Below, one piece after another: positions 12,319 through 27,274 of a DNA stretch of 64,000 nt. The notes under the pieces are model-generated. The model ran no database searches, was not told the DNA's origin, and saw only the letters and a program-made list of their open reading frames with translations. How positions within the stretch are numbered: the first letter of the stretch is position 1; every line of letters starts with the position of its first letter. Location: the NCBI RefSeq assembly GCF_900106045.1, contig NZ_LT629802.1:620001-684000 (forward strand). The letters run 5' to 3'. Source of the stretch: Pseudomonas mucidolens. GTDB taxonomy: Bacteria > Pseudomonadota > Gammaproteobacteria > Pseudomonadales > Pseudomonadaceae. The translations under genes and the position numbers were made by a program.

Positions 12319-12395
12319 GTCCCAGTAGCTCAATTGGATAGAGCATCCCCCTCCTAAGGGGAAGGTTGGCCGTTCGAACCGGCCCTGGGACACCA
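12319..12395 (+). tRNA. tRNA-Arg(CCU), island integration target
   Basis: A 77-base tRNA with encoded CCA, acceptor GTCCCAG/CTGGGAC, anticodon stem TCCCC/GGGGA, loop CTCCTAA, anticodon CCU. Its 3' part from the anticodon stem to the CCA is duplicated at 27227-27274, so the intact gene is reconstituted at the left end of the island. Confidence 0.97.
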
Positions 12396-12396
12396 T
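12349..12396 (+). repeat. attL core, 48-bp direct repeat
   Basis: Identical to 27227-27274. It covers the anticodon-stem region through the CCA of tRNA-Arg(CCU), starting CCCTCCTAAGGGG. Confidence 0.95.
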
Positions 12397-12477: not shown

Positions 12478-12972
12478 TCATCTCTCCAACCCGTACGCAC
12501 GTGGAGCGAGCGCTTCGCATATTTTGCCTAGGTGCTCGGCAACGTCGAACATCTCGCTCCTGATTATGCCTATCGCACCTGGTTCATATTCGTACCGGAT
12601 ACCTACGAAATGATTTTTGTAGCGTTCGATCTTCTCCCGAAGGCCGAACCCGGGCGAAAGCTCTTCTGAGGCGTCATTTATGGCTTTGAGGAACTCAGCG
12701 GGCAAACTATCGTAAAGCTTCAATAGGTCATGCCCGTGTGCGGACTTTAAAGCACCGCAGAACATCTCAACTGACCCGAACCCCTGAAGTGGAATGCTTG
12801 CGTCTCGCGCGTGAAAGGCTTTGAGAAAAAGCTCCATTGAGAAAGCAGCCAGCATACTGGCGGGCCCCAACGCGCCGGGCCCAGATCTTGATTGCTCAAG
12901 AACGAGAGCTGCGTCTAGATAATTCTGTGCTATCTGAATAATTTCAAAACTAGGCAAAGGTATTTTTGGCAC
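12478..12972 (-). CDS. HEPN-like protein, possible defence component
   Basis: A 164-aa protein next to attL. It starts at GTG 12972 with GAGG 5 bases upstream. The all-helical pattern, with AAFSMELFLKAFHA and GHDLLKLYDSLP, resembles HEPN-superfamily proteins, which often act as RNases or accessory subunits in defence and toxin-antitoxin systems. A canonical R-x4-6-H motif is not obvious, so catalytic activity is doubtful. It has no nucleotidyltransferase partner next to it; a serine recombinase gene lies 45 bp upstream on the same strand. The family assignment is by pattern only. Confidence 0.6.
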   Translation of the reverse strand: MPKIPLPSFEIIQIAQNYLDAALVLEQSRSGPGALGPASMLAAFSMELFLKAFHARDASIPLQGFGSVEMFCGALKSAHGHDLLKLYDSLPAEFLKAINDASEELSPGFGLREKIERYKNHFVGIRYEYEPGAIGIIRSEMFDVAEHLGKICEALAPRAYGLER

Positions 12973-13017: not shown

Positions 13018-13641
13018 TCAATTAACGCGGCTGTGAAGATCTCTAATTCGAAGCACCGTCGTGGTCGAGCATCCTGCGTGTCGGGCCGTTGCGCGAATTC
13101 CCAGGCCGGCGCCGAGCAGCTCGGTGACGCGCTTGTGCAGGTCGGCATCCACGGGGCGCCCCTGGTACTTGCCGGCGGCCTTGGCTTTCTCGATGCCCTG
13201 GGCCTGGCGGTCGCGGCGCTGCTCGTAATCCTTGCGCGCGATTGCGGCCATCATTTCCACCAGCATCGAGTTGATGGCCCCAAGCATCCGCCCGGTGAAC
13301 TCGTCGCCCTTGGTGTCCTGCATTCCCTGGTGGCTGGTCGGCAGGTCTAGCGCGACGATGCGCAGGCCCTTGGAGTCGATAGCGGCCTTGAGCTTTTGCC
13401 AATCCTCAACCGGCAGGCGGGAGAGACGGTCGATCGATTCCACCAGCAGAACGTCACCCTTGCGCGCATCTTTCAGCAGGCGCAGCAGCTCCGGCCGGTC
13501 GGCGGTGGCGCCGCTGGCGTTCTCCAGGTACACGCTGGCGATGACCTTGTTATGGTCGCTGGCGAACTGCTCAAGCGAGGCGCGGGCGCGGCTGGCGTCT
13601 TGCTCTTCGGTGGATGCTCGGAGGTATGCGCGGATGAACAT
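13018..13641 (-). CDS. Serine recombinase / resolvase family protein
   Basis: A small serine recombinase of 207 aa. The N-terminal catalytic domain has YLRASTEEQDASRA with the nucleophilic serine at residue 10, ENASGATADRPELLRLLKDARKGD and VESIDRLSRLP with the conserved arginines. The long E helix precedes GRPVD and a C-terminal helix-turn-helix (IRATARHAGCSTTTVLRIRD). Such enzymes resolve or invert DNA. No res or inverted site is obvious nearby. It is much more GC-rich than the cassette that follows, which suggests a separate origin. Confidence 0.88.
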   Translation of the reverse strand: MFIRAYLRASTEEQDASRARASLEQFASDHNKVIASVYLENASGATADRPELLRLLKDARKGDVLLVESIDRLSRLPVEDWQKLKAAIDSKGLRIVALDLPTSHQGMQDTKGDEFTGRMLGAINSMLVEMMAAIARKDYEQRRDRQAQGIEKAKAAGKYQGRPVDADLHKRVTELLGAGLGIRATARHAGCSTTTVLRIRDLHSRVN

Positions 13642-13860
13642 GATGTGTGCCTGTATCAGTTAGGGCGTTTCACTAATACTGTTGCACTTTGGATGTTACT
13701 TATCAAGCGGAAAGCCCGAAAAAGGCAAAATAAGCCTGTATCTGGATAGGCATACACAAAAAAACGACAAAGCGCTCGTGCCTTCCATGAGCTAGGCGGC
13801 TATTATTGTGCCACTATTTTGTGACGCTAATCAGCTGTACTCTAAAAAGAAAGGACTCGT

Positions 13861-14763
13861 ATGCACTCGCTATCTGCTTACACTTTAAAGGTTCACGATA
13901 ATCTTTTGGATGGTCCCAAAGGCGAGAGATATCATGAGCTGAATAATATCAGAACTAATGATATGTTAGATTTTATACATGCTTTTCTCGAAACACTTAA
14001 AAAAGAGATGCATGATGATACCGAGACAAAAAAGACCATTCAGGTGGTGAGTGTCGAGAAAAAAGGTCGTAGCGTTTTCGGCTGGTTGGAGTACGGTGAG
14101 TATGGGCTTGCCGGTAGCATCGTTGATATAAAAAGCCGGAAAAAGACTCATGATAAAAAACATGACGAAACTGATGTGAAGTCTTTGTATTTTAGTTTCT
14201 GTATCCCTGAAAAAAGTAAAACAGGGGTGGTATTGCTACACACCGCTGGGGGTAAGGGTGTAAAGACATTTTTCCATAAGGAATTCGGTGCATATTTCAA
14301 TAAGATGGTAGGCCTCCATGTGCAGATGCCAGCGCTTGCACATGAAGCCTCCGTTAAAGAGTGGCTCGATAAGTCCGATGTTAAGGAGATTCGACTAGGG
14401 CGCTACAATCTTACGGATAAAGGTGCTGATATAGCTGATAATTTGGGCGTAGAACGTGCAGAACTAATTCTTAAGCCCAAAAGAGGTATGGGCTTTGGGA
14501 ACATCAAGGGACTCAGAGAAAAGGTCGATGGAGCAGATCGCTCTTACGTAGAGATGCTATCTGATATTTCTGCGGATGTTAAAGCCGTTGTGGAGTCGGG
14601 GGGACGAAAAAAAGTGCTGTCGCTCAGGAATGGAGAGCCGATAGCCGCTATCGATATCGACGAGGAGAATGTTGCCATGGAAAACGGTAGTCCTGATCCG
14701 AGCAGCTTGCATGACTATGCGCAACATCTGATGAAGGAGTTTGTTCAGAAGGTGTCAAAATGA
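13861..14763 (+). CDS. Unknown 300-aa protein, first gene of a putative defence cassette
   Basis: I do not recognise the family. The protein is soluble and charged. It has an N-terminal part with a beta-rich look (SLSAYTLKVHDN, TIQVVSVEKKGRSVFGWLEYGEYG), a middle KTGVVLLHTAGGKGVKTFFHKEF segment, and a C-terminal lysine-rich half (LILKPKRGMGFGNIKGLREK). AAAGGA lies 5 bases before the ATG. The stop overlaps the start of the next gene in ATGA, so the two are translationally coupled. Base composition is clearly AT-richer than the chromosome. Position in an island plus pairing with a four-helix membrane protein recalls two-gene anti-phage systems such as Kiwa, but no homology is shown. Confidence 0.75.
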   Translation: MHSLSAYTLKVHDNLLDGPKGERYHELNNIRTNDMLDFIHAFLETLKKEMHDDTETKKTIQVVSVEKKGRSVFGWLEYGEYGLAGSIVDIKSRKKTHDKKHDETDVKSLYFSFCIPEKSKTGVVLLHTAGGKGVKTFFHKEFGAYFNKMVGLHVQMPALAHEASVKEWLDKSDVKEIRLGRYNLTDKGADIADNLGVERAELILKPKRGMGFGNIKGLREKVDGADRSYVEMLSDISADVKAVVESGGRKKVLSLRNGEPIAAIDIDEENVAMENGSPDPSSLHDYAQHLMKEFVQKVSK

Positions 14764-15404
14764 GCCAAAAAATTAACATCTGGTTTATTCTCGTCCGGCA
14801 TTGCAGGTCTGCCGTTCGCAACTCTTCGACTGACAAGATTTCGTTGTCAGACTTGACTATTTTTCTGTTGGTTCCTGCTGCTACAGCCGTATTGGTTTTT
14901 TTTAGTGAGATTGTTGATAAAGCGAACACCATAAGTCTATTGACTTCTGTGTGTGCGATTTTTGCAGGTTTGCTGCTGAACTTACTTGTTCTGGTTTATG
15001 ATCAGAGTAAGAGGGTGAGCGAGAAGTTGATCGTTTTGACTGAGGCTCGTCGAGGCCTAATTAAGTCAGCAGAAAGCTTGGGGGTGCTCAAATCTGGTGA
15101 TATAGACTCACCTGAGGATTTTCCCATTCGTAGGTATAGCCAACATAAGAGACTGCTGAGTGAGTTAGTGGTGAATATCTCTTATTCGGTTATTGTTTCG
15201 GTCTTTGCGTCTGTGTTATGTATGATTGCTTATTTGGCATCGCCACCCAAGGTTGGTACCCCGATTCAGGGAGTATGGTCGGCTATTCTTAGTTTTGACT
15301 ATAAGAATTTGCTTTTCTCTCTTTCTGTTTTTCTTACTGCTAATTTAGTTCTGACTCTTTTAATGATAGTTAAGCGCGTATTCAAGTTAATGGATGATGA
15401 GTAA
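14760..15404 (+). CDS. Four-helix membrane protein, second gene of the cassette
   Basis: The 214-aa protein has four clear hydrophobic segments at about residues 33-50 (IFLLVPAATAVLVFF), 58-80 (LLTSVCAIFAGLLLNLLVLVY), 138-160 (NISYSVIVSVFASVLCMIAYL) and 183-206 (LFSLSVFLTANLVLTLLMIV). A charged cytoplasmic-type loop between helices 2 and 3 holds DQSKRVSEKLIVLTEARRG. It overlaps the preceding gene by four bases and is AT-rich like it. It is probably the membrane-sensing or membrane-effector partner of the 300-aa protein; I cannot tell which. A hairpin follows the stop. Confidence 0.75.
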   Translation: MSQKINIWFILVRHCRSAVRNSSTDKISLSDLTIFLLVPAATAVLVFFSEIVDKANTISLLTSVCAIFAGLLLNLLVLVYDQSKRVSEKLIVLTEARRGLIKSAESLGVLKSGDIDSPEDFPIRRYSQHKRLLSELVVNISYSVIVSVFASVLCMIAYLASPPKVGTPIQGVWSAILSFDYKNLLFSLSVFLTANLVLTLLMIVKRVFKLMDDE

Positions 15405-15415
15405 TCATTAATGCA

Positions 15416-15450
15416 AATGCCCGGCACGAAAACGCTCAAGGCCGGGCATT
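15416..15450. terminator. Hairpin between convergent cassette and phage block
   Basis: AATGCCCGGC (15416-15425) and GCCGGGCATT (15441-15450) form a 10-bp stem with a 15-base loop. T-runs are short on both sides, so it is a plausible bidirectional terminator. Confidence 0.5.
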
Positions 15451-15497
15451 TATCATCCGAAGGTCGAACCGCAAGAAGAGTTCTTTATTCCGGTAAC

Positions 15498-16094
15498 TTA
15501 CATCCGATCCTCAGCGTAAATCGCCGCGCTGATGATCGCGCCACCCCAGCGCCGGTAGCCGCAGCAAAGCGGTACTGGGTTGCCAGAGGCAGTGGTGTTT
15601 CGTGCTGCGCCAAATGCATACGATGGCGTGTTCTCCGGCGCTGCGCTGGTCTTGAGACCGCCGGCCTGGGGGCTGAGCATTTGAATAACACCGCCGGCAA
15701 CCATACCCACTCCAGATGCAAACAAGCCGGCTGATACTGGAGGCGCCCAGAACGTGAAGAATGACGCTGCGATCAGCACGGCGCCGATTACGGTTTGCAG
15801 AACTCCAGAGCGTTTGCTGCCCACTATCACGGGGGCGATGATGATGTCGCCCTTGCCTTGAAACCCAAGCTCACCCTCACCGATATTTTTCTTGCCTCGA
15901 AATACCGCGAACACGAGGCCGCGAGACTTCGCATTCGACAGAAACCGTTCAAACCCAGGGATCTGCACTGACAATGCTTTGATTGCCTCGGCCGGCGTTC
16001 GGATGGAGAACTGGTAGGACTTACCGAACTGCCGTAGCTGTCCGTACAGTTTGATTGTGGTGAGCTGGGCGTATTCGATTGCTGTAGCGGCCAT
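15498..16094 (-). CDS. Phage tail assembly protein, lambda gpI family
   Basis: At 198 aa this resembles lambda-type tail-assembly protein I: N-terminal beta domain (TIKLYGQLRQFGKSYQF, AEAIKALSVQIPGFERFL), a central glycine/hydrophobic stretch and the family ending NPVPLCCGYRRWGGAIISA. The gene appears full length. The start is the ATG at 16094 with AGGAGG 4 bases upstream; longer frames lack support. In siphophages it lies between K and the central fibre gene J. Here neither is present, and it is the last gene of a leftward block of small phage-type genes. Confidence 0.8.
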   Translation of the reverse strand: MAATAIEYAQLTTIKLYGQLRQFGKSYQFSIRTPAEAIKALSVQIPGFERFLSNAKSRGLVFAVFRGKKNIGEGELGFQGKGDIIIAPVIVGSKRSGVLQTVIGAVLIAASFFTFWAPPVSAGLFASGVGMVAGGVIQMLSPQAGGLKTSAAPENTPSYAFGAARNTTASGNPVPLCCGYRRWGGAIISAAIYAEDRM

Positions 16095-16102
16095 GGGGCC
16101 TC

Positions 16103-16447
16103 CTATGGCTTGGTGGATGGGGCGGGCAGCCCAAGACGAATGGCGAGTACTGCACGCGACATATGCGCCTGGTCGATGGTCAGTTGCTCCTGGCGCGGGT
16201 CGTAGTTCCACACCCGGTTGTAGATCGCATCGCTGGCCCGGGCGCCTCGGAATGTCCCCCTCAGCAGGTCGGCGGAAACCCTGGCCTCTTCCTCAGTGAA
16301 GAAGGGGCCGTCGACTGTCACTTGTTGGCCACCACTGACGTGCTGGACCTCCCACACCGTGTAGCCGGCGTCCGGCCCCTGGATCAGTTCGTAGGGTTTG
16401 AATTTCTGCGTTTTGCACGCTTCGGTAAAACGCTCTTGAAAGGTCAT
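16103..16447 (-). CDS. Phage-type hypothetical protein
   Basis: A 114-aa soluble protein (MTFQERFTEACKTQKF start) that ends 8 bp before the gpI-like gene, so cotranscribed with it. GAAG stands just before the ATG at 16447; an in-frame ATG at 16489 is possible. No motif recognised. Its centre has GPFFTEEEARVSADLLRG. Confidence 0.6.
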   Translation of the reverse strand: MTFQERFTEACKTQKFKPYELIQGPDAGYTVWEVQHVSGGQQVTVDGPFFTEEEARVSADLLRGTFRGARASDAIYNRVWNYDPRQEQLTIDQAHMSRAVLAIRLGLPAPSTKP

Positions 16448-22059: not shown

Positions 22060-22722
22060 TCATTGAAGCGTCGCAGTGAGAAAACGCTCCACATCATCGA
22101 TCATGCTCCTCACGTCCGCGGCCGTGAACTCCTCTGGCTTACCATGGGCGGCACTGTTGCGGATTGCAGCCAAGGCGGTGATCCGCTTTTTCTGACTGGC
22201 ATTGTATGCACCTACCTTGGCTAGGTCATCGTTCATTTTGTTGAGGCTACCGTGCTCTAGCTCATGGGTAGAACACAGATCGCGCAGAGTCGTCTCGAGG
22301 ACAACACCTGCGATTACCGCCGCAGCAGTGGCGTAGCTGTTTCTGAATAGCTCCTCTGCTTGCTCTAGCTCATTGGAAAATACCTCTGCTTGGACCAGGT
22401 TGCGGTACGACACTAAGTAGCCGCCTTCGAAATCCTCCTTGGTAGCGAGGAAGATCGCTCTGAGGCGCTTCAGGCGATCTACCTCCGAATCAAATGATCG
22501 ATATTCCTCGGCTTCAATAAATGTCTTTAACTGACTTGCCGCTTCTGAGCCCAACCGCTCAAACAATGATTTGACCTTCACGCCCCAATTGAGCACTAGG
22601 TCCGATTCGATGTGCTCGTAACTTGAACCTGTATACGAACTGTTTCTATGGGTTTTAGACGCCAGGATCTCTTCCAATTGCTGCTCAAGCTCGACAAACC
22701 GCCTTGCGATCATCGCAGTCAT
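22060..22722 (-). CDS. HEPN / DUF4145-like protein
   Basis: 220 aa, helical. The C-terminal half has AAAVIAGVVLETTLRDLC followed by ITALAAIRNSAAHGKPEEFTAADV; RNSAAH matches the R-x4-6-H motif of HEPN ribonucleases, and the arrangement resembles DUF4145-type proteins. The N-terminal half (LEQQLEEILASK onwards) may be a separate helical domain. Its Shine-Dalgarno is GGAAGGA 7 bases before the ATG. It converges on the alarmone synthetase gene with 69 bp between them. A role in RNA cleavage or as a toxin partner is possible and untested. Confidence 0.7.
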   Translation of the reverse strand: MTAMIARRFVELEQQLEEILASKTHRNSSYTGSSYEHIESDLVLNWGVKVKSLFERLGSEAASQLKTFIEAEEYRSFDSEVDRLKRLRAIFLATKEDFEGGYLVSYRNLVQAEVFSNELEQAEELFRNSYATAAAVIAGVVLETTLRDLCSTHELEHGSLNKMNDDLAKVGAYNASQKKRITALAAIRNSAAHGKPEEFTAADVRSMIDDVERFLTATLQ

Positions 22723-25396: not shown

Positions 25397-25894
25397 ATGG
25401 CGACTAAGACGAGTAAGCGCGCGGGTGAATCGAGCACGACAGTGAGCGTTGGGATTCGGATCGATCCTAAAATCAAGTTCGCTCTGGACATCATGGGTCG
25501 GCTGCAAAAGCGCTCTCTGACGGCCGTTATTGAATGGTCGATCTCTCAGGCAATCGCTAATCAGGCGACGGATTTTGATGGCGGGACATTGGCTAGCTCG
25601 ATAGACAAAATTTGGTCTACAGATGAAGCGGTTAGAATGGTGAACCTGGCGATAAATATGCCGGAAGCCCTCACGTATGATGAGTTAAGAGTGTGGGAGA
25701 CAATCAGATCTAGTGCTTATTTTTGGGACGTGTACCCAGACGGCTCATTCGGAGACAATTTCAATCGGCTTGAACTGAATCTCATCAGGTCTCACTGGGC
25801 GCTGATCCAGTCTCATGTCGAAAAGCACAAATCGTCACCGACAGTGGTCCCCATCTATGACGACGACTTCATGCCTGACGACATACCGTTCTAA
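25397..25894 (+). CDS. Putative ribbon-helix-helix-like island protein
   Basis: 165 aa from the ATG 25397. After a basic tail (MATKTSKRAGESSTTVSV), the segment GIRIDPKIKFALDIMGRLQKRSLTAVIEW (given here in part) resembles a strand-helix-helix DNA-binding fold. The remaining 110 residues are acidic and end YDDDFMPDDIPF. It is convergent with the integrase, overlapping its stop by four bases, and divergent from the excisionase unit. Possible repressor; uncertain. Confidence 0.6.
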   Translation: MATKTSKRAGESSTTVSVGIRIDPKIKFALDIMGRLQKRSLTAVIEWSISQAIANQATDFDGGTLASSIDKIWSTDEAVRMVNLAINMPEALTYDELRVWETIRSSAYFWDVYPDGSFGDNFNRLELNLIRSHWALIQSHVEKHKSSPTVVPIYDDDFMPDDIPF

Positions 25895-27102
25895 ATCAGT
25901 TCCACAGCAGCGGCCTTTGTTCCTGGCGCCAGATGTGCGTAGCGCAAAGTCATCTTGATGTCGGCGTGCCCCAGCAGATCCCGTACCGTATTGAGCGGTA
26001 CGCCGGCCATTACCAGGCGTGACGCAAAGTCGTGACGCATATCGTGCCAGCGGAATCCGTCGATCTGAGCCCGCTCAAGCAACTTGAGCCAGGCGCTTTT
26101 GACGTCCTCAAAGCGACCGCCGCCCTGACCTGGGAAGACATACGGCGACTTGCTCACCTGCTTCTTCCAGGCTTCCAGCACACCAATAGTCTCCTTGTTC
26201 ATCGGGATGTGGCGCGTATCGCTTGTCTTGGTGGTGGCCCCGGCGACTGTGATTGTCTTCGTGTCGAAGTTCACCGCTGACCATTTAAGGTCGAACAGCT
26301 CTCCGCGCCTCATGCCGGTATTCAACGATACCAACACCATTGGCTTCAGGTGATCGGTGAAGGGCAGTTCCAGCAGGCTTGGCATCGGCTCTCTGTGGCG
26401 GTCCGTCCGCCAAGTGTTCGCACTCTCACGCTCGGTCCTCATTTCATCCTGTCGAGCGTCCAGGGCATCGCGTAGACGTTTGGTCTCGTCAGCAGCCAGG
26501 TAGCGAATCACTCCCTTTGAATCGACTTTGAGCTGTTTCAGCTTGGCCAGCGGATGTGTATCGATGTAATCCCACTCGACCGCCCGGCTGAATACTCCGC
26601 TGATAGAGCCCATTTTCCGGTTGACCGTGGAGGGCTTGTTGCCGCCCTGCATCCATCCTGTGCGGATCAGCTCCAGGTCTCGCCCGGTGATCGCGTCCAA
26701 GCGCTGGGCCATGATTGGGTCGAAGTTATTGCTGAGGGTGTGCTGCGTCTTCTCATGGCCTTTGTGATGGGCTTTGAACCACGGCATATAGGTGTCGTCG
26801 ATAAAGTCGCGCAGCGAGGGCAGGGCTGACCCTTTGCGGCCCTGGGCGATGGCGAGAGGCTCGCCATGGGCGTGCGCATCGGCTAAGTACTGGGCGGCCT
26901 CGGTTCGGGCTTGGTCAAGAGTAAGCACGCCGACACGCCCGAGGGTGGCGTTCTTGTTTCGGCCCCAAGTGACCATGTAGGACTTGTGACCGCTGGGCAG
27001 TACACGAATGAAGAAACCGGGTTGCACGGTGTCATGCACGCGGTATGCTTTCGCCTCGGCGGCTAGGCTGCCAATTAGCTTCTGAGTGATTTTGGTTTTC
27101 AA
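25891..27102 (-). CDS. int: Tyrosine-type site-specific integrase
   Basis: About 403 aa. N-terminal arm-binding domain of the P4/DUF4102 kind (GFFIRVLPSGHKSYMVTWGR), core-binding SAM-like domain around residues 100-200, and a C-terminal catalytic domain with the arginine in NTGMRRGELFDLKW, HDMRHDFASRL (His and Arg), LLGHADIKMTLRYAHL (His and the tyrosine nucleophile). All key residues are present. It lies next to the right att core, as expected. I prefer the TTG at 27102 (KTKITQKLIGSL); a GTG at 27159 would add 19 residues but would put the arm-site repeat inside the gene. Confidence 0.93.
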   Translation of the reverse strand: MKTKITQKLIGSLAAEAKAYRVHDTVQPGFFIRVLPSGHKSYMVTWGRNKNATLGRVGVLTLDQARTEAAQYLADAHAHGEPLAIAQGRKGSALPSLRDFIDDTYMPWFKAHHKGHEKTQHTLSNNFDPIMAQRLDAITGRDLELIRTGWMQGGNKPSTVNRKMGSISGVFSRAVEWDYIDTHPLAKLKQLKVDSKGVIRYLAADETKRLRDALDARQDEMRTERESANTWRTDRHREPMPSLLELPFTDHLKPMVLVSLNTGMRRGELFDLKWSAVNFDTKTITVAGATTKTSDTRHIPMNKETIGVLEAWKKQVSKSPYVFPGQGGGRFEDVKSAWLKLLERAQIDGFRWHDMRHDFASRLVMAGVPLNTVRDLLGHADIKMTLRYAHLAPGTKAAAVELI

Positions 27103-27110
27103 GGGTTCGA

Positions 27111-27132
27111 CCGTGACAGCAGGGTGGCAGCA
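27111..27132 (+). repeat. Putative integrase arm site, right
   Basis: Twenty-two bases matching 12441-12462 at 21 positions, same orientation, about 95 bp inside the right att core and just upstream of the integrase gene. Confidence 0.55.
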
Positions 27133-27226
27133 AAAAGCACTATACCGCTCGATGTTCACGGACTCAATGGGACTAAAGGGCCCATTAATACTGGGCTTGT
27201 GGCTGTGCCTGTTGGGTCGAAATTGA

Positions 27227-27274
27227 CCCTCCTAAGGGGAAGGTTGGCCGTTCGAACCGGCCCTGGGACACCAT
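27227..27274 (+). repeat. attR core, 48-bp direct repeat
   Basis: Identical to 12349-12396; the displaced 3' end of tRNA-Arg(CCU). Chromosomal sequence with the original tRNA terminator resumes directly after it. Confidence 0.95.

Follow-up and report, generated by a model that had tools for sequence, protein, structure and literature searches.

We examined a two-gene cassette in a 64,000-nucleotide stretch of the Pseudomonas mucidolens genome (the window; positions 620,001-684,000 of NZ_LT629802.1, a one-contig genome of 5,853,067 bases), where, within a prophage-like element, a gene for a 300-residue protein is followed by a gene for a 214-residue protein (coordinates of all features are collected in Table 1). 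Both open reading frames (ORFs) are intact and share an ATGA overlap, and their guanine-plus-cytosine (GC) contents of 0.436 and 0.411, against 0.57 for the window, bear out a preliminary description of the locus as an overlapping pair that is AT-rich relative to the chromosome. That description had also recognized a soluble protein coupled to a membrane protein with four transmembrane (TM) segments, in agreement with our finding of no hydrophobic segment in the 300-residue protein and four in the 214-residue protein, whose structural model consists of four long helices. The sequence AAAGGA lies five bases ahead of the first ATG of the soluble gene, and a terminator-like inverted repeat stands just after the pair; a scan for consensus terminators called none for the pair.

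Against five relatives, the ratio of nonsynonymous to synonymous change (pN/pS) ranges from 0.10 to 0.37 in the soluble gene and from 0.20 to 0.54 in its membrane partner; because synonymous change is saturated or nearly so, these ratios indicate constraint qualitatively and not its strength. On these sequence comparisons, both genes look maintained. The small size of the surrounding element and its few recognized phage genes would suit a functionless prophage relic carried in degraded DNA, but both frames are intact and constrained, the coupling of the genes is conserved, and a Pseudomonas viridiflava genome holds the pair in the same slot; we regard a relic as highly improbable.

Neither protein was accepted into any family of Pfam, PADLOC or NCBIfam, and two weak Pfam rows for the membrane protein (0.051 and 0.056) lay below their cut-offs. 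Among the unnamed PHROGs families, the soluble protein matched phrog_15676 (7.6e-12) and phrog_36224 (2.4e-8), and the membrane protein matched phrog_15250 (3.2e-6). The initial statement that the pair has no recognizable domain thus stands for curated hidden Markov model libraries, but not for fold comparison or for PHROGs. Searches with tblastn located homologous pairs in the Pf-type filamentous phage PfAC16, in a second P. aeruginosa phage record and in four Acinetobacter plasmids; on the membrane side the E-values were weak (0.07-0.4), so homology of the partner there rests on position and alignment. We extended the family by three protein searches, two scans of viral contigs and one scan of genome contigs. 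Named close homologues of the soluble protein comprise Pseudomonas rows and one Pantoea row, while named sources of the wider family include Pseudomonas, Acinetobacter, Vibrio, enterobacteria, Alteromonas, Methylomonas and a Phycisphaerae bin. The resulting soluble alignment has 103 rows (95 of 130 returned proteins, the window protein and seven locus translations, with near-duplicates and fragments removed by eye), and the membrane alignment has 22 (the window protein and 21 of the partners then known). Housekeeping or known toxin families were unsupported in Pfam, NCBIfam and PADLOC for the pair and for family members alike, and a sequence search of the PDB with the family profiles returned nothing at E<=0.001. 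Scattered weak library rows for single or few members (E 0.0017-0.1), of which DUF805 was the widest (5 of 22 membrane members, best 0.0039), were taken as chance. Within the open-licence PMC literature, we found no naming of a function for this family.

The two genes are tightly linked. In a first survey, the ORF following the soluble gene carried at least three hydrophobic segments in all 16 loci and four in 15; gp43 of the Gordonia phage CarolAnn showed three by the threshold used. In a second survey, which shares ten loci with the first and includes four contigs twice, a membrane ORF follows the soluble gene in 31 of 32 loci, overlapping it by four bases in 26 of the 31 (counted among the 31 is L042, with a shorter, three-segment partner); at the lone exception, the contig ends 130 bp past the soluble gene. 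Of 398 genomes of the same genus, 8 carry the soluble gene (E<=0.001) and 10 match the membrane gene (E<=0.01), and all 8 carriers have both genes adjacent and near full length, the two additional membrane-gene genomes (G367 and G017) giving weak partial matches. A scan of 369 genomes from the class recovered the soluble gene in 4, including the window's own genome and one short partial match. The pair is therefore uncommon yet tightly linked, and it passes the comparison that the preliminary description had proposed as a test of itself, in which failure of the genes to co-occur elsewhere would have counted against it.

Searches of the PDB with the structural model of the soluble protein were led by RexA (8TWQ), RdgC and Iml3, the latter two being published relatives of RexA. 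The 300-residue protein is thus predicted from its model to have the fold of lambda RexA, with RdgC as the best Foldseek match (3.6e-5). The 103-row profile aligned with a set comprising CarolAnn gp44, gp30 of the Mycobacterium phage Sbash and Sejanus gp46 at 88.8% probability (E 2.5e-6) over 282 columns, almost the full length; tblastn of the single protein against CarolAnn gp44 was marginal (8e-3, 24.3% identity). Nine positions (K10, R70, K99, K135, K175, K205, K241, R249 and K251) are Lys or Arg in at least 100 of the 103 rows, and these conserved basic residues would fit a predicted DNA-binding surface. DUF4747, to which the preliminary description had pointed, gave no Pfam match for the soluble protein at E<=1 and does not figure among the families listed (25 of 26) for the 103 members. 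The guess was nevertheless in the right direction, as weak HHpred matches to DUF4747 have been published for RexA, CarolAnn gp44 and Sbash gp30; matches of that kind are not expected to appear with HMMER.

RdgC is a cellular, non-specific DNA-binding protein with no membrane partner in the available description, and from its length the window protein appears to lack the RdgC tip domain. The RdgC match, together with the reported ability of lambda RexA to bias the bistable switch of lambda (PMC11077077), would accord with a pair that mainly tunes the lysis-lysogeny switch or recombination of its prophage, exclusion being a side effect or absent. Against this, no repressor adjoins the pair, homologous pairs also reside on plasmids and on a Pf filamentous phage, a switch offers no obvious part for a membrane protein, and rexABpp, a related pair introduced below, is described as without effect on its repressor promoter (PMC12894663). 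We consider such a role improbable.

For the membrane protein, Foldseek returned no match at E<=0.001. Family partners fall into two lengths: the window protein, L008 and L013-L016 have 210-215 residues, including additional ones between TM2 and TM3, and the other 16 have 176-194. Tyr80, Asp81 and Gln82 of the window protein are conserved in 20, 21 and 22 of the 22 members, respectively. In Sbash gp31, the substitutions R70A and D73A, located between TM2 and TM3, are reported to abolish defence, and the R70/D73 stretch adjoins the position of Tyr80-Asp81-Gln82 in an alignment made via CarolAnn gp43, which is weak evidence. SLATT families, another suggestion for the membrane protein, produced no match in general library scans run without a positive control, either for the window protein (E<=1) or for the 22 members (E<=0.1); these scans covered Pfam and hence presumably its SLATT models.

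The closest experimentally supported counterparts are the Rex-like defence pairs of CarolAnn (gp44/gp43) and Sbash (gp30/gp31), which are proven to act in defence and require both genes. Like the window pair, each consists of a soluble gene followed by an overlapping membrane gene with four published TM segments, and both are carried by temperate phages; their soluble proteins are longer (370 and 372 residues versus 300). A second counterpart, RexABpp (PP_5643/PP_5644) of the P. putida prophage P1, is a RexAB-type system published in January 2026 that combines a DNA-binding protein with a membrane effector whose activation admits dyes and stops growth (PMC12894663). It resembles the window pair as a prophage-borne Pseudomonas pair of a RexA-like DNA-binding protein (predicted in the window) and a four-TM protein. 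At most two of the seven published RexBpp residues coincide with family partners by raw position, and the comparison otherwise proceeds by description. Lambda RexA/RexB share with the window pair the gene order, the four-TM second protein and the RexA fold of the first. The lambda genes do not overlap, whereas the window genes do.

The order of a soluble gene before a four-TM gene, the RexA fold and the profile homology to CarolAnn gp44 and Sbash gp30 make RexAB the matching kind, and the window locus shows three features of the broad Rex-like kind: a predicted RexA fold, a four-TM gene directly after, and homology of the soluble protein to an experimentally shown sensor. On the grounds of the fold, this homology and the linked, usually four-helix, membrane partner, we propose, with a probability of roughly 0.8, that the pair forms a RexAB-type exclusion (abortive-infection) system carried by a prophage, a function assigned from homology, fold and context. 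The kind is already known; what is new is a sequence branch without a model in Pfam, PADLOC or NCBIfam as used here. The preliminary proposal of an anti-phage pair on a mobile element is therefore probably correct, and of the two roles it suggested for the membrane protein, sensing or executing, the latter is the probable one, but the kind is not an undescribed one, since RexAB matches it.

The library models of Rex proteins miss this branch. Neither PF15969/PF15968 nor the PADLOC RexA/RexB models matched the window pair, while lambda's own RexA and RexB, used as a positive control, were recovered by Pfam (1e-97 and 8.5e-92) and PADLOC (9e-110 and 8.6e-61). The CarolAnn pair likewise escapes the Pfam and PADLOC Rex models, and the Sbash and PfAC16 pairs escape those of PADLOC. 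A lambda-RexA profile run against the 398 same-genus genomes gave one strong relative (G350, 5.3e-35) and eight more rows at E 0.25-0.96. The G350 locus (minus-strand ORFs at 1008-1478, 1363-2322 and 2868-3656 of L055) comprises this RexA relative, then a 156-residue hydrophobic ORF, with a repressor-like ORF, so labelled from sequence, before them; its RexB-like neighbour has none of the seven RexBpp residues.

Several observations weigh against a RexAB-type assignment. The model of the soluble protein has a predicted TM-score (pTM) of 0.71, with residues 188-198 below 50 in predicted local distance difference test (pLDDT), and it scores low against RexA and RdgC (TM-scores 0.30-0.35); neither lambda RexA nor CarolAnn gp44 appears by name in the list of 50 viral models obtained for it. 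The 103-row profile reached 4.6% probability against the lambda RexA family (0.5% for an early 24-row profile), and the CarolAnn/Sbash/Sejanus set itself reached 0.2%, so this type of comparison fails to reveal kinship with lambda even when applied to accepted members of the Rex-like kind. On the membrane side, the family scored 3.5% against the CarolAnn/Sbash/Sejanus partners (gp43/gp31), which is not significant, and 0.1% against lambda RexB (0.4% for an early six-row alignment). The pair also differs in position: the CarolAnn pair follows a repressor, lambda rexA/rexB follow cI, and RexABpp is described downstream of a CI-like repressor, whereas no repressor adjoins the window pair, its upstream gene being a divergent serine recombinase. 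Sbash 30/31 is reported to have its own promoter, and a site downstream of CI is thus not defining for the broad Rex-like kind; a sigma-70 promoter scan of the interval ahead of the window pair (13642-13860) found no match. Finally, depolarization was not detected for RexABpp, and contact of its two proteins was not seen by two-hybrid analysis (PMC12894663).

By analogy with published relatives such as RexABpp, the soluble protein would be the sensor and the membrane protein the executor. Before infection, the soluble protein may sit idle as a dimeric, sequence-nonspecific DNA-binding clamp. An infecting phage would then supply a trigger, which may be one of its proteins or a DNA-protein intermediate formed in replication or recombination; the soluble protein would respond by activating the membrane protein, perhaps through its TM2-TM3 region. 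The activated membrane protein would damage the inner membrane and stop growth, cutting short the infection by the incoming phage and sparing the remaining cells of the population. The opposite wiring, in which the RexA-like protein is itself antiviral and is held at the membrane by the four-TM protein until infection, is exemplified by phage Butters: its gp30/gp31 pair likewise combines a cytoplasmic with a four-TM protein, and phage PurpleHaze is reported to be blocked by gp30 on its own, with gp31 tempering gp30 (PMC7542560). By contrast, CarolAnn and Sbash, the experimentally examined pairs whose soluble proteins are related to the window family by profile, need both genes, and the effector of RexABpp is its membrane protein (PMC12894663), which makes the Butters arrangement unlikely here.

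Kiwa, which the preliminary description had put forward for its similar architecture, is likewise a two-gene defence system of a membrane and a soluble protein and also occurs on Pf phages. We rejected it: the PADLOC Kiwa models recovered KwaA and KwaB of phage PfAC02a (2.6e-68 and 8.7e-106) but matched neither window protein at E<=10, and profile comparisons gave 1.4% (KwaB against the soluble family) and 0.3% probability. The opposite gene order, with KwaA first, had been noted at the outset and holds. We also rejected the exclusion genes of phage Fc02, which overlap on opposite strands (PMC9936078), Fc02 being absent from the tblastn hits.

In the left accessory region of Pf phages, PfAC16 carries the Rex-like pair (L001, 412-1883), and PfAC02a carries Kiwa (L064, 628-2033) with ShosTA beyond, as if defence cassettes were swapped in this region. 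The defence-system table of the PfAC16 paper lists a toxin-antitoxin (TA) system and PfsE and leaves the ORF1/ORF2 pair unnamed.

Table 1. Positions of the gene pair and of other features of its host element in the window.
Feature	Position	Strand	Evidence or description
RexA-like soluble protein, 300 aa	13861..14763	+	predicted infection sensor and DNA-binding clamp; RexA/RdgC fold, CarolAnn gp44/Sbash gp30/Sejanus gp46 profile homology
RexB-like four-TM membrane protein, 214 aa	14760..15404	+	predicted membrane effector; hydrophobic segments, long helices, place after first gene
Inverted repeat, 11-bp arms, terminator-like, just after pair	15415..15451	+	folded stretch 15401-15465: -19.9 kcal/mol, z -2.6
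attL, 48-bp repeat	12349..12396	+	overlaps 3' part of tRNA-Arg(CCT) 12319-12395
Serine recombinase, divergent from and upstream of pair	13018..13641	-	Pfam Resolvase 1.5e-25
Phage tail assembly protein, convergent with pair, downstream	15498..16211	-	phrog_32 3.4e-69
Tyrosine integrase of element, beside attR	25891..27159	-	phrog_1 1.4e-63; Pfam Phage_integrase 1e-29
attR, second copy of 48-bp repeat	27227..27274	+	
164-aa protein, beside attL	12478..12972	-	
RelA/SpoT-domain protein, 332 aa	20992..21990	+	Pfam RelA_SpoT 3.8e-25; PADLOC candidate PDC-S33 1.5e-17; phrog_9640 7.5e-52
220-aa protein	22060..22722	-	DUF4145/HEPN-like C-terminal part (DUF4145 8.1e-6)

The host element is 14.9 kb long and bounded by a perfect 48-bp direct repeat, a 26-base piece of which is present twice against a chance expectation of 0.00 (100 shuffles). 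The pair starts 1.5 kb from attL, and the repeats, the overlap with tRNA-Arg and the tyrosine integrase substantiate the tRNA island of the preliminary description, as do the Resolvase and phrog_32 matches its placement of the pair between a serine recombinase and a convergent phage block. Ten element proteins were compared with PHROGs; the named functions were integrase, tail assembly and one weak DNA-binding match, the remaining scanned proteins having unnamed families or no match, and the element is probably a degraded prophage or satellite. The P. viridiflava locus (L014) has the pair with a serine recombinase 95% identical and in the same place, together with tail-side genes at 55-90% identity, and this shared arrangement indicates that, in at least two genomes, the pair occupies a cargo slot flanked by the serine recombinase and the tail-side genes. 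A related recombinase (49%) lies upstream of the pair in another locus (L021) too, where it is co-oriented with the pair.

Elsewhere in the element, the RelA/SpoT-domain gene (GC 0.406), which adjoins the gene of the DUF4145/HEPN-like protein, is a possible second defence cargo. The 164-residue protein beside attL had no Pfam, PADLOC, NCBIfam or PHROGs match and was absent from the other fetched loci at E<=1e-5.

Some 70 years after RexAB of lambda was discovered, the RexABpp report still describes the manner of its activation as unknown (PMC12894663), and the present family offers many diverged, compact pairs, some of them in Pseudomonas, for tests of the trigger and of the membrane effector. 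The PfAC16 ORF1/ORF2 pair likewise gains a likely function. The PADLOC version used misses the window, PfAC16, CarolAnn and Sbash pairs, and RexAB-type defence is therefore likely undercounted. As a tentative extension, which we hold to be rather doubtful, a large, unmodelled and mostly gammaproteobacterial Rex family may have converted a DNA clamp of the RdgC fold into a sensor of infection. This sensor would read phage recombination or replication intermediates of a type that RdgC would be expected to bind in normal cells, and it would signal to a family-specific four-helix membrane effector. If true, the presence of the family on filamentous phages, small plasmids and prophage-like elements would make RexAB a general class of mobile immunity rather than an oddity of lambda.
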